A stretch of DNA of 40,341 nt, taken from contig NZIP01000031.1 of NCBI GenBank assembly GCA_002691645.1, positions 29,597 through 69,937 of the forward strand. The letters are read 5' to 3'. The stretch is from Flavobacteriaceae bacterium (GTDB lineage: Bacteria > Bacteroidota > Bacteroidia > Flavobacteriales > Flavobacteriaceae). This document shows, piece after piece, positions 10,225 to 24,547 of the stretch (position 1 is the first letter of the stretch; each line of letters starts with the position of its first letter). Under the pieces are notes generated by a model. The model saw nothing but the letters and a program-made list of their open reading frames with translations, was not told the origin of the DNA and ran no database searches. The position numbers and the translations under genes are program-made.

Positions 10225-10492
10225 TAAGCAACGATTTTTCGCTCGAAAATCACAGAAAAAAATAATGTATACTATTTTATCAAATAATGAAAAAATAATT
10301 TCATTCGATTTTTTCATGTAATTTTTTCATTCTTTTTATTAAATGTAAAATACTTAATATCAATATATTACACTCATTTCAATTAAGATACGTTTAAGGG
10401 TGTAAATAGTGTAACATTTTTACAAATGACCTACAGTTAAATATAATGTTGTGAAATTGTTAACAAAATTTTCAATTCAAGAATCATTTTGT

Positions 10493-15646: not shown

Positions 15647-15677
15647 AAAGCTGCCTAGATTTAGGCAGCTTTTTTTA
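15647..15677 (+). terminator. Rho-independent terminator after susD
   Basis: An 11-bp perfect stem, AAAGCTGCCTA with TAGGCAGCTTT around a four-base loop (GATT), runs into seven T residues or more. It is the strongest plus-strand terminator in the window. It lies 25 bp after the susD stop and 27 bp before the next gene start. Confidence 0.9.
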
Positions 15678-15703: not shown

Positions 15704-18700
15704 ATGATGAACATGAGATATTTAGTACTGTTACTGCTAGGGGCTTTTACTTTTTCTTGTACAAACCATACCGAGCCACCATTATTCAAAGTTTTAAATG
15801 CGGAGGCCTCAGGAATAGACTTCAATAACCGGTTAGTAGAAGATGATACCGTTAACATTTTAGACAATGAATTTGTCTATAACGGAAGTGGAGTAGCTAT
15901 TGCAGATCTTAACAACGATGAACTACCTGACCTTATTTTTACCGGAAATCAGGTTGCGAACAAAATATACCTCAATAGGGGAGAACTTCAATTCTTAGAT
16001 GTCTCAAATCAGGCCGGATTTATAAAACCTGATTCATTAATGTGGTCTTCAGGGGTGAGTGTTGTAGATGTCAATGCAGATGGATTAAATGATATCTACG
16101 TCTGTAATACGTTTAGAAAGCAAAGTACACTTCGTAAAAACTTATTGTACATCAATCAAGGTCTAAATGAGCAGGGACTACCAGTTTTCGTTGAAAAAGC
16201 CGCTGAATACGGCCTAGACAATGATTCATATTCTTCAAATGCTCAATTTTTTGATGTGGACAATGACGGAGATTTGGATGTTTTTATAGGTGTCAATCAA
16301 ATCGATGGAATTAACCCGAATGAATTTAGACCCAAACAAGACGATGGAACCTCACCAAGTCGAGATCGACTATTACTCAACTCAACAGCAGAGGGGCAAA
16401 TCAAATATCAAGACGTCTCTGCATCAGCTGGTATCAAATTCCACGGATATACGCATTCGGCATTAACCTACGATTTTAATGCAGATGGATTTTTAGATAT
16501 TTTCGTGGCCAATGACTTTTTAAGCAATGACCTTTTGTATATTAACAATCAAGACGGGACTTTTAGCAATCAAATAAGTGATAGTTTTAAACACCTTAGT
16601 CTTTCTTCAATGGGAAGTGACATTGGTGACATCAATAGCGATGGAAGGGCAGATTTATATGTCACAGAAATGCAACCCTTCTACAACAAAAGAAAAAAAT
16701 TATTTCAGGGCCCGAGCAATTATCAAAAAGAGATTTTCACCAAGCGCTACGGATTTGAAAAGCAGTATGCTCGTAATGTGTTGCACGTAAACCAAGGTGT
16801 TTCTTCGGCTGATGGACTCCCTATTTTTAGTGACTTAGGAATGATGGCGAAGGTTCAGGAAACCGATTGGAGCTGGACACCTCTTTTTATGGATGCAGAC
16901 AACGACGGCTTACAAGATTTATTTGTGACCAACGGTTTTCCTAAAGACGTTACAGATCGTGACTTTGGAGACTTTCGAGTAACAGCAAGTCGTCTGGAAA
17001 CAAAAGAACGACTCTTAGCAGCCATACCTGAGATTAAAATCTCCAATTTTATTTTTAAAAATAAGGGGGCTTATGATTTTGAAGATTACACCCAAAAGTG
17101 GGGTCTTGATTTTGGCACCTATTCTCATGGTGCGGCATACGGTGATTTAGACAAAGACGGAGATTTAGACTTGGTGGTCAATAATATGAATGATACTGCA
17201 AGCGTTCTGGTCAATCAGCTCAATACAATCGAATCTGAGACACATTGGGCGACATTTAAGCTGCAGGGTCCAGCTTCGAATAAAAATGGTATAGGGGCTG
17301 AATTAAGGCTTTACACTAATAATGGTATTCAGTCTCGTTATCAACTGACCAATAGAGGCTACCTATCTCAATCTGATTTAAAACTTCATTTCGGACTGGG
17401 AACAACAAATCAAATCGATAGTGTAGTAGTGAACTGGCCGGGTAATCAAAGTCAAGTATTTCATGATTTAGCAATAGATGCATTAAATACACTGACCTAT
17501 AATGCTGATCAAATTGAAGAGCGCACTCTTAAGACTATAATTAGCCCACAATTTGTTAATGCAAATCAAAAATTAGGCTTGGATTATTTGTCAAGAGACA
17601 TCGACTTCATCGATTTTAATTTTCAGAGAACTATACCACATAAATTTTCATCTTATGGGCCGTCAATCGCGGTAGGAGATATTAATGCTGATGGTATTGA
17701 AGACTTTTTTCTGTCGGCCAGTCGAAATTTTAAAGAAGTTTGGTTTATGGGGAAGGCTGACGGAAGTTATGCCAAACAAGAAGTCAATTATAAGGCCAAT
17801 ATAGAATTAGAAGAAGAAGACTCTTCGAGTTTACTTTTTGACGCAGATCAAGACGGAGATTTAGACCTCTACATCGCAAGAGGATGTGCACAATATCCAG
17901 AAAATCACCCCTACTACAAAGATGAGTTATGGATGAACGATGGAATTGGAAACTTCACTCTTTCTAAAGATGTGCTTCCAGAATTTTTATCAAATACCTC
18001 CGCAGTCAAGGCAGCTGATTTTGATCGCGATGGTGATTTAGACCTCATCGTAAGTGCCTCTGTTAAGCCATTTACTTATCCCTATGGCGATTCGCATTAC
18101 ATTCTCATCAATGAACTCGATTCAGGATCATTAAAGTTCAGTCTTGCTGATGAGTCAATCGAACCAGAATTGATGGATATAGGTATGTTGAGTGACGTTT
18201 TATGGACCGATTACAACAATGATGGCTGGGTAGATTTACTGCTCGCAGGGGACTTTATGCCCATTACTTTTTTAGAAAATCGCAAAGGGAAATTTAAACG
18301 TCTCAAAAACTCAGGCTTAGAAGAACATTTAGGATGGTGGAGCAGTTTAAGTGCGGCAGATTTCGATCGTGACGGAGATATGGATTACGTCGTCGGAAAT
18401 ATTGGGCGAAACATCAACACACAAGCAAAGGCAGATGAACCCATAAGAATCTACGCCAAAGATTTAGATCAAAATGGAACCATAGATCCTTTAGTTTCTT
18501 ATTTTTTAAGAGATAGTTTAGGCGTAAAGAAAGAATACCTCTATCATCCTTGGGATGATATATCCAAGCAATTTGTAGGCATTAGAAAACGTTTTAATTC
18601 TTATGGACAATTCGGTGAATTGTCTGTGCCTGATATGTTTGAGGATGGCTTATTAGCAGATGCTGATGTATATACCTTGAATGAAATGAATTCGGTTTGG

Positions 18701-21378: not shown

Positions 21379-22242
21379 TTAACCGAGATAGGTTTTGAGA
21401 ATTTTGCTTCTTGATGTGTGTTTTAGTCTTCGGATTGCCTTTTCTTTAATTTGTCGAACGCGTTCGCGGGTCAAATCAAAGGTTTCTCCTATTTCTTCAA
21501 GTGTCATAGAGTGCTGTCCAGCAAGGCCAAAATACAATCTTACCACGTCGGCTTCACGAGGTGTTAAGGTGTCTAAGGCACGCTCGATTTCTGTTCTCAA
21601 AGATTCGTGTAATAATTCTTTATCTGGATTAGGTGATTCGCCAGAACGCAATACATCGTATAGATTAGAGTCCTCCCCGTCTATTAAAGGAGCATCCATA
21701 GAAACATGACGTCCAGAATTTTTAAGGGATTGCTTTACGTCCTCTACTGTCATATCAAGTTCTTTTGCTATTTCTTCTGCCGAGGGAATACGCTCATGGG
21801 CCTGTTCCAAGTGGGCAAAAGTCTTGTTGATTTTATTGATAGAACCAATTTTATTTAGTGGAAGTCTCACAATTCTCGATTGTTCAGCTAGTGCTTGTAG
21901 AATCGATTGTCTAATCCACCAAACGGCATAGGAAATAAACTTGAATCCTCTAGTTTCATCAAAACGTTGAGCTGCTTTAATGAGTCCAAGATTTCCTTCG
22001 TTGATAAGATCAGGAAGAGTTAAGCCTTGATTTTGGTATTGCTTTGCAACAGATACTACGAATCTTAAGTTGGCTTTTGTCAGTTTTTCAAGGGCAATTT
22101 GGTCACCTGCTTTTATTTTTTGTGCGAGTTCGACTTCTTCTTCTGCAGTGATTAAGTCTACCTTACCAATTTCTTGTAAATACTTGTCAAGTGATGCGGT
22201 CTCTCTGTTGGTGACCTGTTTTGTAATCTTGAGCTGTCTCAT
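21379..22242 (-). CDS. rpoD: Primary sigma factor RpoD/SigA
   Basis: This 287-residue housekeeping sigma factor directs RNA polymerase to TTTG/TAnnTTTG promoters. It starts directly at region 1.2 ([20 protein letters not shown]). Region 2 carries [19 protein letters not shown] and [14 protein letters not shown], the core-binding and -10-melting helices. Region 3 follows, and region 4 ends with [20 protein letters not shown], the -35 helix-turn-helix. Region 1.1 is absent and the protein is short, which is usual for the Bacteroidota primary sigma factor. A long inverted repeat occupies its leader. A strong terminator follows. Confidence 0.97.
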
Positions 22243-22263
22243 AGTTGTGAATTAATTCTTACC

Positions 22264-22302
22264 GTGTAACCTTTATACGTAGAAAAACGCAAAAGGTTAC
22301 AC
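22264..22302. repeat. Perfect 11-bp inverted repeat in the pnp-rpoD gap
   Basis: GTGTAACCTTT (22264-22274) and AAAGGTTACAC (22292-22302) are exact reverse complements with a 17-base spacer. The repeat begins 22 bp upstream of the rpoD start codon and ends 40 bp after the pnp stop. There is no T-run on either side, so it is not an ordinary terminator. On the minus strand the upstream arm runs into TTTTGCG, which resembles the TAnnTTTGC promoter core with one or two extra bases, so it may be an operator or an RNA hairpin in the rpoD leader. Confidence 0.6.
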
Positions 22303-22342
22303 TAGTAGAATAATTTAACGTGAATTCGCTAAAAATGGTATG

Positions 22343-24547
22343 TTAATCTCTTCTTCTGTGGTCTCTTCTTTGACTTGATCTAGGTTTACCGCCACGATCT
22401 GATCTTGGAGGACGCTCTTGATATCCTTCAGGTTTTTCTAAAAGAGCTTTTCGAGAAACTTTTTCTTTCTTGGTTCTAGGGTCAAAACCAAAATATTTTA
22501 CTTCTATGATATCACCTAAGTTCACCACGTCAGTAACATTTTCTGTTCTTTCCCACGCCAATTCAGAAACGTGAAGTAAGACTTCGTTTCCAGGTGCTTC
22601 TGTGTATTCGACAACTGCACCAAAATCTAGGAGTTTAATTACTTTAACCTCATAGCGTTCTCCAACTTCAGGTTTAAACTGCAAAGATTCGATTGCTTTA
22701 AGAACCTTGTCGATTCCTTCTTGGTCTGTTCCTAATATTTCAACAACACCCTCACCATCTTCATTTTCATTAATAACGATAGTGGTGTTCGTGTCTGCTT
22801 GAAGATCTTGAATATTCTTACCACCACTTCCAATGAAGGCTCCGATTAAATCACCCGGTAAAATAGTCGTCACGATTTTCGGTGCATGTGACTTAACCTC
22901 TGTATTTGGTGTATCTATAGTTTCGACAAGTTTATCTAGGATGTGAAGTCTACCATCTTTTGCTTGCACTAAGGCTTTGGTTAAGATTTCATACGACAAT
23001 CCTTTTACTTTAATGTCCATCTGGCAAGCTGTGATACCATCAGCTGTTCCAGTAACTTTAAAATCCATGTCACCTAAATGGTCTTCGTCTCCTAAAATGT
23101 CTGAAAGAACAGCATACTTACCACTTTCAGCATCAGTAATGAGTCCCATTGCAATACCAGAGACCGGTTTTTTGATTTGTACCCCAGCATCCATAAGAGC
23201 CAGTGTTCCAGAACATACCGTAGCCATTGATGAAGAACCGTTTGATTCTAATACTTCAGAAACCACACGAACAGTGTAAGGGCAGTCTTCAGGAATCATT
23301 CCTTTTAGGGCGCGTTGGGCTAAATTTCCGTGTCCAACTTCTCTTCGTGATGTTCCTCTTAAAGGTCGAGCTTCACCCGTTGAGAAAGGTGGAAAATTGT
23401 AGTGTAAATAGAAACGCTCTTCGCCTTCAAGTGAGGGCATGTCAATGATATTAGCATCTCTAGAGGTGCCTAAAGTTACTGTTGATAATACCTGTGTTTC
23501 TCCACGAGTAAAAATGCCAGAACCGTGTGTAGATGGCAAGTAATCAATCTCACACCAAATTGGTCGAATTTCATCTGTCTTTCTACCGTCTAATCTAAGG
23601 CCTTCTTCTAAGGTTAAATTTCGAACTGCATTTTTCTCAGTTTTACTGTAATACTTTGAAATCAAATCTTTCTTTTCTTCCAATTCTTTTTCTGAGAATT
23701 CGGCCATTAAAGCTTCTTTTATTTCTGAAAAAGCGCTTCCTCTTTCTTTCTTAGAAGAACCTTGTTTAGCCACTTCATATACCTTGTCATAAACCATTGA
23801 ATTTACTTTTTCTTCTAATTCAAGGTCCTGAGGTTCAGGTTCGTACTCGCGTTGTTCTTTCTTACCAACTTGAGCAACGAGTTTCTTTTGAGCCTGACAT
23901 TGCACTTTAATCGCTTCGTGAGCGAATTTGATGGCTTCTACCATTTCTTCTTCTGAAATTTCTTTCATTTCTCCTTCTACCATCATAACTGAATCTTCAG
24001 AAGCACCGATGATCATATCGATATCAGATTCTTTCAATTGAGCAAGTGAAGGATTGAGAACGAGCTCTCCATCTATTCTTCCCACTCTTACCTCAGAAAT
24101 TGGGCATTCGAATGGTATATCAGAAAGCTGAATTGCTGTTGAGGCAGCTATTCCCACTAGAGCATCAGGTGTAATGCTGTCGTCATAAGACATCATTTGA
24201 ATCATCAATTGTGTCTCTGAGTGATAATCTTTCGGGAATAATGGACGTAATACACGGTCCACAATTCGCATGGTTAAAACTTCTCCGTCACTTGGTCGAG
24301 CTTCACGCTTAAAAAATCCACCGGGAAAACGTCCTGCGGATGCAAATTTTTCGCGGTAGTCTACAGTTAGGGGAAGAAAGTCTACGTCTGCCGCTTTGTA
24401 GTTCGATACTATAGTACATAAGAGCATGCAATTACCCGACTGTACGACAACCGAGCCATGAGATTGTTTGGCTAATTTGCCAGTTTCAATAGAGATGCTT
24501 CTGCCATCTCCGAGGTCGATGACCTCATTGTAAGTTTTTGGAATCAT
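22343..24547 (-). CDS. pnp: Polyribonucleotide nucleotidyltransferase (PNPase)
   Basis: This 734-residue 3'-5' phosphorolytic exoribonuclease works in cytoplasmic RNA decay. Both RNase PH domains are present: the first with [15 protein letters not shown] and DRVLRPLFP, the second with [29 protein letters not shown] and the catalytic segment [22 protein letters not shown] domain follows ([13 protein letters not shown], about residue 575) and then an S1 RNA-binding domain (about 630-700). The tail is rich in Arg and Pro (RRDHRRRD). It lies downstream of rpsO, the usual neighbour. Three inverted repeats occupy its 150-bp leader, recalling the autoregulated pnp leaders of other bacteria. Confidence 0.98.

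Follow-up and report, generated by a model that had tools for sequence, protein, structure and literature searches.

In many Flavobacteriales, the primary sigma factor gene rpoD is preceded by a conserved promoter, TGTAAC-N16/17-CGTATA, and genome comparison indicates that this promoter is probably served by one dedicated SigW-like ECF sigma factor with rpoD as its target. Two short boxes separated by 16 or 17 bases form a sequence pattern that points to a sigma factor. The promoter overlaps a perfect inverted repeat between pnp and rpoD in a 40,341-nt stretch of a Flavobacteriaceae genome (hereafter the window), as had been proposed in a preliminary description of this DNA. Coordinates are compiled in Table 1.

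The upstream sequence was inspected at 110 rpoD-like loci, and a set of 94 genomes was defined which leaves out 15 paralogues, L001 (the same place as L002), L024 (a second rpoD-like match of G072 on a 3.7-kb contig) as well as genomes G002, G014, G061 and G095, which have no full main rpoD. The exact promoter precedes the main rpoD in 71 of these 94 Flavobacteriales genomes, a number rising to 79 with at most one mismatch, and the 71 are the only exact occurrences at all 110 loci. None of the 15 rpoD paralogues fetched carries the promoter even with one mismatch allowed, and 2200 shuffles yielded no exact copy of it. A second rpoD-like gene (G000:C1:51642-52502, L163), 77% identical, is present in the source genome G000 and many relatives. 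Base and spacer statistics were gathered from 76 promoters, leaving out G081, G083 and G085. In this set, taken with at most one mismatch overall, the -10 box starts with CGTA in 76/76 cases and the following T and A are conserved at 96-97%, while spacers are 16 (26 promoters) or 17 bases long (50 promoters), lengths of 15-18 having been allowed.

The promoter is kept at loci without pnp found in the upstream stretch; since pnp lies upstream in some loci and was not found there in many others, the motif goes with rpoD. Order-wide, it was detected at a fitting distance from ATGAGACA in 156 of 395 genomes, with 0 in the reversed control. When the pattern was searched with spacers of 15-17 in 98 whole genomes, 126 sites were found, 71 of them at rpoD. 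The reversed control, which has a different base order and is thus a rough yardstick for a surplus of sites, yielded 130, so no surplus exists outside rpoD. In the source genome, the sole site of the promoter pattern is the one at rpoD. A larger regulon in this genome was also considered using TGTAAC-N15-17-CGTNT and rejected, none being seen with 9 sites versus 18 in the reversed control.

The Bacteroidota primary-sigma box TAnnTTTG, quoted in passages of PMC6847099 and PMC7366714, was found within 120 nt upstream of rpoD at 0/76 promoters, against 7.6% in shuffles. The box expected before rpoD for an autoregulated primary-sigma promoter is thus missing from all 76. The same search returned 2/15 genomes lacking the sigma factor described below (shuffles 4.8%) and 4/15 rpoD paralogues (shuffles 9.9%). 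According to a section of PMC10936215, the rpoD promoter of F. johnsoniae was used to drive a transposase, and it therefore works as a promoter.

The candidate sigma factor was identified by phylogenetic profile. Sigma70 region-2 matches were listed in the source genome and in 13 genomes selected because they have few ECFs or lack the promoter, and 52 ECFs were extracted and placed in a tree, one G020 ECF with an internal stop (L232) being left out. One clade, with nine members and support of 100/98, is represented once in every one of the nine panel genomes that carry the promoter (G000, G009, G053, G056, G065, G066, G069, G072 and G091) and is absent from the five promoter-less ones (G020, G045, G063, G077 and G084). 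G084 has no ECF, and the other four have no promoter yet encode other ECFs, about 11 in G020 and about 7 in G077. In G069, the clade member is the only ECF found. Scores of the clade profile (A1) are bimodal in 98 genomes, with at least 171 bits in 78 genomes and at most 125 bits for the other listed matches. High scorers occur once per genome except in G058 (6% contamination), which has two copies; the 395-genome search gave two matches in G142. Scores in families f5, which we take to be Weeksellaceae, and f14 reach just 171-175 bits in the 98 genomes, and some f5 matches in the 395-genome search are as weak as 5e-47.

Promoter and sigma factor co-occur closely. Both are present in 76 of the 94 genomes and both are absent from 15, with three genomes carrying the promoter only and none the sigma only (Fisher p 9e-15, a statistic that ignores kinship). 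The three are G081 (one mismatch, 83% complete), G083 (96% complete) and G085 (68% complete). Under the strict promoter pattern, the 395 genomes divide into 151 with both, 5 with the promoter only, 55 with the sigma only and 184 with neither. Loci were inspected in 12 of the 55 sigma-only genomes and 12/12 carry the promoter with at most one mismatch. The promoter-only genomes are G174 (86% complete), G183 (94%), G295 (79%), G349 (76%) and G364 (99%). Genus g104 gave no clade match at the 1e-38 cut in any of its five genomes (G119, G174, G183, G324 and G344), through either divergence below this cut or true loss. When the promoter/sigma label was mapped onto an rpoD tree of 61 of the 94 genomes, whose bootstrap had not settled, 8 changes were counted (7-9 in bootstrap trees), at least 3 of them forced by well-supported branches. 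In family f1, long rpoD branches lead to G045 and the pair G020/G032, all without promoter and ECF, which would fit a faster evolution of the primary sigma after the change.

The source-genome protein scores 106.5 bits against TIGR02937 (sigma70-ECF superfamily; cut-off 42.9), and the closest solved structure to the G287 orthologue is SigW. Among the 25 listed matches for each of two orthologues, no subfamily or equivalog model reached its cut-off, i.e. no named ECF subgroup was recovered. Judged from these genome searches, the ECF appears to be nearly always single-copy, and no conserved target other than rpoD was detectable. The pattern TG[TA]AAC-N15-18-CGT was not found upstream of 30 sigma genes (up to 300 nt; 31 and 50 nt at two loci). 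By a mechanical rule, the ECF gene apparently starts with TTG rather than ATG in 20/30 loci (L241-L270), which could mean low expression. Nearly identical ECF genes were further observed on two contigs of the source genome (G000:C16:8728 and G000:C59:6246), which may reflect a duplicated or strain-mixed stretch in the assembly.

The motif could alternatively be a real rpoD promoter served by several or other ECFs, the profiled clade being merely correlated with it. Overlapping ECF regulons for CGT-box promoters are suggested by the F. psychrophilum authors in part of PMC9723704, and eight promoter-bearing genomes of the two sets have no detected sigma. No other ECF clade of the panel, however, matches the pattern of presence and absence, promoter-less G020 and G077 keep other ECFs, and 0/76 sigma-bearing genomes lack the promoter, making this alternative unlikely. 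Under the preferred reading of a dedicated sigma factor, RNA polymerase with the SigW-like ECF would transcribe rpoD from TGTAAC-N16/17-CGTATA, the ECF presumably binding TGTAAC and CGTATA as the profile and class match suggest. The rpoD mRNA would begin around ten bases past the -10 box, i.e. in arm 2 of the repeat. We would guess from its housekeeping target that the ECF is always active; its level would then set the level of housekeeping transcription, with the primary sigma made under the control of another sigma. On balance, we lean towards a broader hypothesis, in which an essential, constitutively active ECF with a one-gene regulon (rpoD) would operate across much of Flavobacteriales, the housekeeping sigma would not transcribe itself and all housekeeping transcription would be dependent on the ECF. 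This two-tier hierarchy would have evolved apart from ShbA-hrdB and would have been dismantled several times, promoter and sigma together.

The gene neighborhoods of 11 clade ECFs were inspected. Nearby homologues include a lipA-like radical-SAM protein in 8 (the lipA label is our reading of a Radical_SAM match), murB in 7, a small membrane protein in 6 and GAPDH in 5. Five immediate downstream neighbors were scanned and matched Radical_SAM, Nramp, GidB and TonB_C, one being without a family. Directly downstream of the ECF in G287 (L278), which belongs to the large genus g74, lies a gene for a TonB-like protein (PF03544). An RskA-type anti-sigma factor (PF10099) is encoded two genes upstream of the ECF in 4/11 neighborhoods (G000, G005, G042 and G024) and may control it. 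This anti-sigma factor sits beside a second, different ECF (L271; in the source genome on G000:C44 at 38706) with which it probably pairs, and no RskA-type homologue was seen in the other seven neighborhoods.

Table 1 Features of the pnp-rpoD region and of the candidate sigma factor gene.
Feature	Position	Strand	Remarks
Arms of inverted repeat	22264-22274 and 22292-22302	.	17-bp loop between the arms
-35 box TGTAAC	22296..22301	-	Inside first arm (mRNA sense); conserved promoter
Spacer, 16 bp	22280..22295	-	N16 in 26/76 promoters, N17 in 50/76
-10 box CGTATA	22274..22279	-	In loop; last base is first base of arm 2
Second arm AAAGGTTACAC	22264..22274	-	Lineage-specific; over predicted transcription start
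Predicted transcription start	~22264-22270	-	Estimated from ECF promoter geometry
Rest of rpoD 5' UTR	22243..22263	-	0-1 differences among the three repeat-bearing species
rpoD, primary sigma factor, 287 aa	21379..22242	-	Best matches are RpoD models, all below curated cut-offs
pnp, polynucleotide phosphorylase, 734 aa	22343..24547	-	Pfam RNase_PH, PNPase, KH_1, S1
Clade ECF of source genome	G000:C44:40180-40716		Outside window

The repeat itself, GTGTAACCTTT-N17-AAAGGTTACAC, is a perfect 11-bp inverted repeat at 22264-22302, exactly as first described. It sits 21 bp from the rpoD start, within the 100 bp that separate this gene from pnp (both genes are on the minus strand); in gene sense the gap reads ...GTGTAACCTTTTGCGTTTTTCTACGTATAAAGGTTACAC..., followed by those 21 bp. 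One arm had been credited with a near-promoter core, and it does carry part of the core, the -35 box, the -10 box lying in the loop. The reported lack of a T-run was borne out by a terminator scan of 22000-22600: the repeat is not followed by the T-run of an intrinsic terminator, and no terminator was found between pnp and rpoD in the source genome. The GTGTAAC noted near 10408 is likewise present (at about 10409), but no CGT box lies there at promoter spacing. The window contains 3 perfect repeats with arms of at least 11 and loops of 3-30, compared with a mean of 0.4 and a maximum of 3 in 30 shuffles, and words similar to GTGTAACCTTT occur at chance level (17 vs 14 expected). Another perfect 11-bp repeat, with a 4-bp loop, is located at 15647-15672 shortly before a gene at 15704 and is possibly a terminator. 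A perfect repeat of at least 11 within the promoter region of about 67 bp was seen in about 0.12% of 3240 shuffled promoters and in 5/81 real ones, the latter from two lineages. The source genome (2.48 Mb, 62 contigs, 91% complete) holds one such repeat only. A scan of named genomes matched six stretches, two from kin MAGs sharing the repeat (Flavobacteriales WTJC01000036 and Flavobacteriaceae NZIQ01000054) and the remaining four from Palleniella, an uncultured bacterium, Desulfovibrio and a lake Bacteroidetes MAG.

Conservation over the repeat is divided: the promoter, and with it the ECF sigma, is conserved, but the repeat is not. Among ten genus members inspected, three (G000, G005 and G006) carry the repeat, its 39 bp being identical in all three, while the pnp-rpoD gaps of the other seven keep the promoter but are missing arm 2. 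Across the -10 box, a repeat this large is missing from 76/81 promoters. A conserved operator or RNA switch, as the preliminary description had envisaged, does not agree with this distribution. A second lineage, G071/G082, has a different 12-bp repeat, CTACGCCTCCTT-N9-AAGGAGGCGTAG, around the same -10 box, identical in both genomes although their flanks differ; further repeats of this kind were looked for in the family of G071, where the same two genomes alone were recovered. Arms of at least 6 surround the -10 box in 23/81 promoters versus about 19% of 4000 mixed pairs, an excess too weak to count as general enrichment of repeats beyond the two lineages. The possibility that the second arm drives a divergent promoter was likewise discarded by eye: TGTAAC-N17-CGCAAA on the opposite strand departs from the -10 consensus, and in the other repeat lineage the second arm contains no -35 box.

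The first arm is explained by the -35 box, and arm 2 appears from the sequence comparison to have been added just after the -10 box in the lineage of the window. Arm 2 could have no function and stem from template switching that copied the -35 region in an ancestor shared by the three species, in keeping with an exact reverse copy of a conserved arm and a narrow distribution. Yet no decay is seen at high synonymous divergence (the nearby UTR is likewise conserved), and G071/G082 provide a second independent case; we consider this origin possible but doubtful. An operator private to the lineage, where a dimeric regulator on both arms would cover the -35 box and the start and repress rpoD, seems rather unlikely. 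All 39 bp agree among the three species despite differences at 61-74/287 third codon positions of rpoD, with 6-10 of 40 upstream bases also differing and the 21-bp UTR conserved too, and the other repeat, in G071/G082, flanks the same -10 box and does not differ between these two genomes. Against an operator, there is no second repeat copy in the source genome, the first arm is accounted for by the -35 box, and the arms of the two lineages differ in sequence and spacing (17 vs 9), so that no regulator is shared.

With about even chances, the repeat encodes a 3' hairpin for RNA reading through from pnp, on DNA that also serves as the promoter: such RNA would form a strong hairpin across the promoter and thereby gain a 3'-end structure. 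Among loci with the promoter and pnp at most 400 bp upstream, 20/28 have an intrinsic terminator in the gap. The 8 loci without one include the five loci of the two repeat lineages, the others by the strict rule being L018 and L019 (other hairpins) and L024 (none). The 3'-hairpin role is favored because both repeat lineages lack a pnp terminator; it is based on these two lineages, and the repeat hairpin is without a U-tract. The predicted RNA fold of the whole pnp-rpoD gap (106 nt) is strong, with z -6.8, and could also suggest an RNA switch in the rpoD leader. This is highly improbable, given that the predicted start lies in arm 2 and an rpoD mRNA from this promoter would thus be without arm 1. 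Furthermore, an Rfam scan of 22100-22500 gave one sub-threshold match, outside the gap, and the proposed comparison of the pnp-rpoD gap across relatives revealed no compensatory changes, the arms being identical in the 3 genomes that have them. Averaged over 79 promoters, the fold of the 5' UTR is no stronger than that of shuffles (mean z -0.12), and 24 hand-picked f5 UTRs show a weak hairpin (mean z -1.0). Several f5 genera have a short rpoD 5' UTR hairpin of varying sequence (GTCC/GGAC, AACCT/AGGTT, AACTC/GAGTT); the quality of a MAFFT alignment of these f5 UTRs was too low for base pairs to be counted.

The way in which bacteria adjust the level of their main sigma factor is a fundamental question, usually answered by self-transcription. 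If the proposed arrangement is true, a sigma ahead of the housekeeping sigma would be a recurrent design, an ECF clade outside all curated family models would gain a first named target, and genetic tools could draw on a promoter read by just one sigma. No report of a dedicated ECF for rpoD in Flavobacteriia or Bacteroidota was found in searches of an open-access library.

A sigma ahead of the primary sigma is already known from the ShbA-hrdB system of Streptomyces, where an ECF likewise drives the primary sigma gene in normal growth. ShbA has very few targets, hrdB and shbA in vitro (part of PMC9205884; the system is also covered in sections of PMC4493692). In contrast to ShbA, whose own gene is a target, no such promoter was found before the flavobacterial ECF gene. 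The two systems belong to different phyla, the promoter here is TGTAAC/CGTATA, and the likeness is a proposed one of arrangement, drawn from co-occurrence (76/3/0/15). Compared with the Bacteroidota primary-sigma promoters (-33 TTTG/-7 TAnnTTTG) of the same organisms, the -7 box is absent from the rpoD promoters within 120 nt. An ECF-type CGT -10 box is also found in the SM6 promoters of Flavobacterium psychrophilum, a motif from start-site mapping whose listed genes, in the part of PMC9723704 concerned, include T9SS and envelope genes and an ECF/anti-sigma pair; the sigma is not settled there and rpoD is not among the SM6 genes of the printed selection. In sequence, the rpoD promoters resemble Bacillus SigW-class promoters, with the same -10 box, the same spacing and one base of difference in the -35 box. 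SigW, which has an anti-sigma factor of its own, controls a stress regulon, whereas the flavobacterial ECF has one detectable conserved target. The SigW consensus is given in an excerpt of PMC2375139 as TGAAAC-N16,17-CGTA(T). The rpoD promoters share its CGTA (76/76) and its spacer of 16-17, and depart from it at the -35 box, which is TGTAAC in nearly all of them and TGAAAC in L019, L141 and L148.
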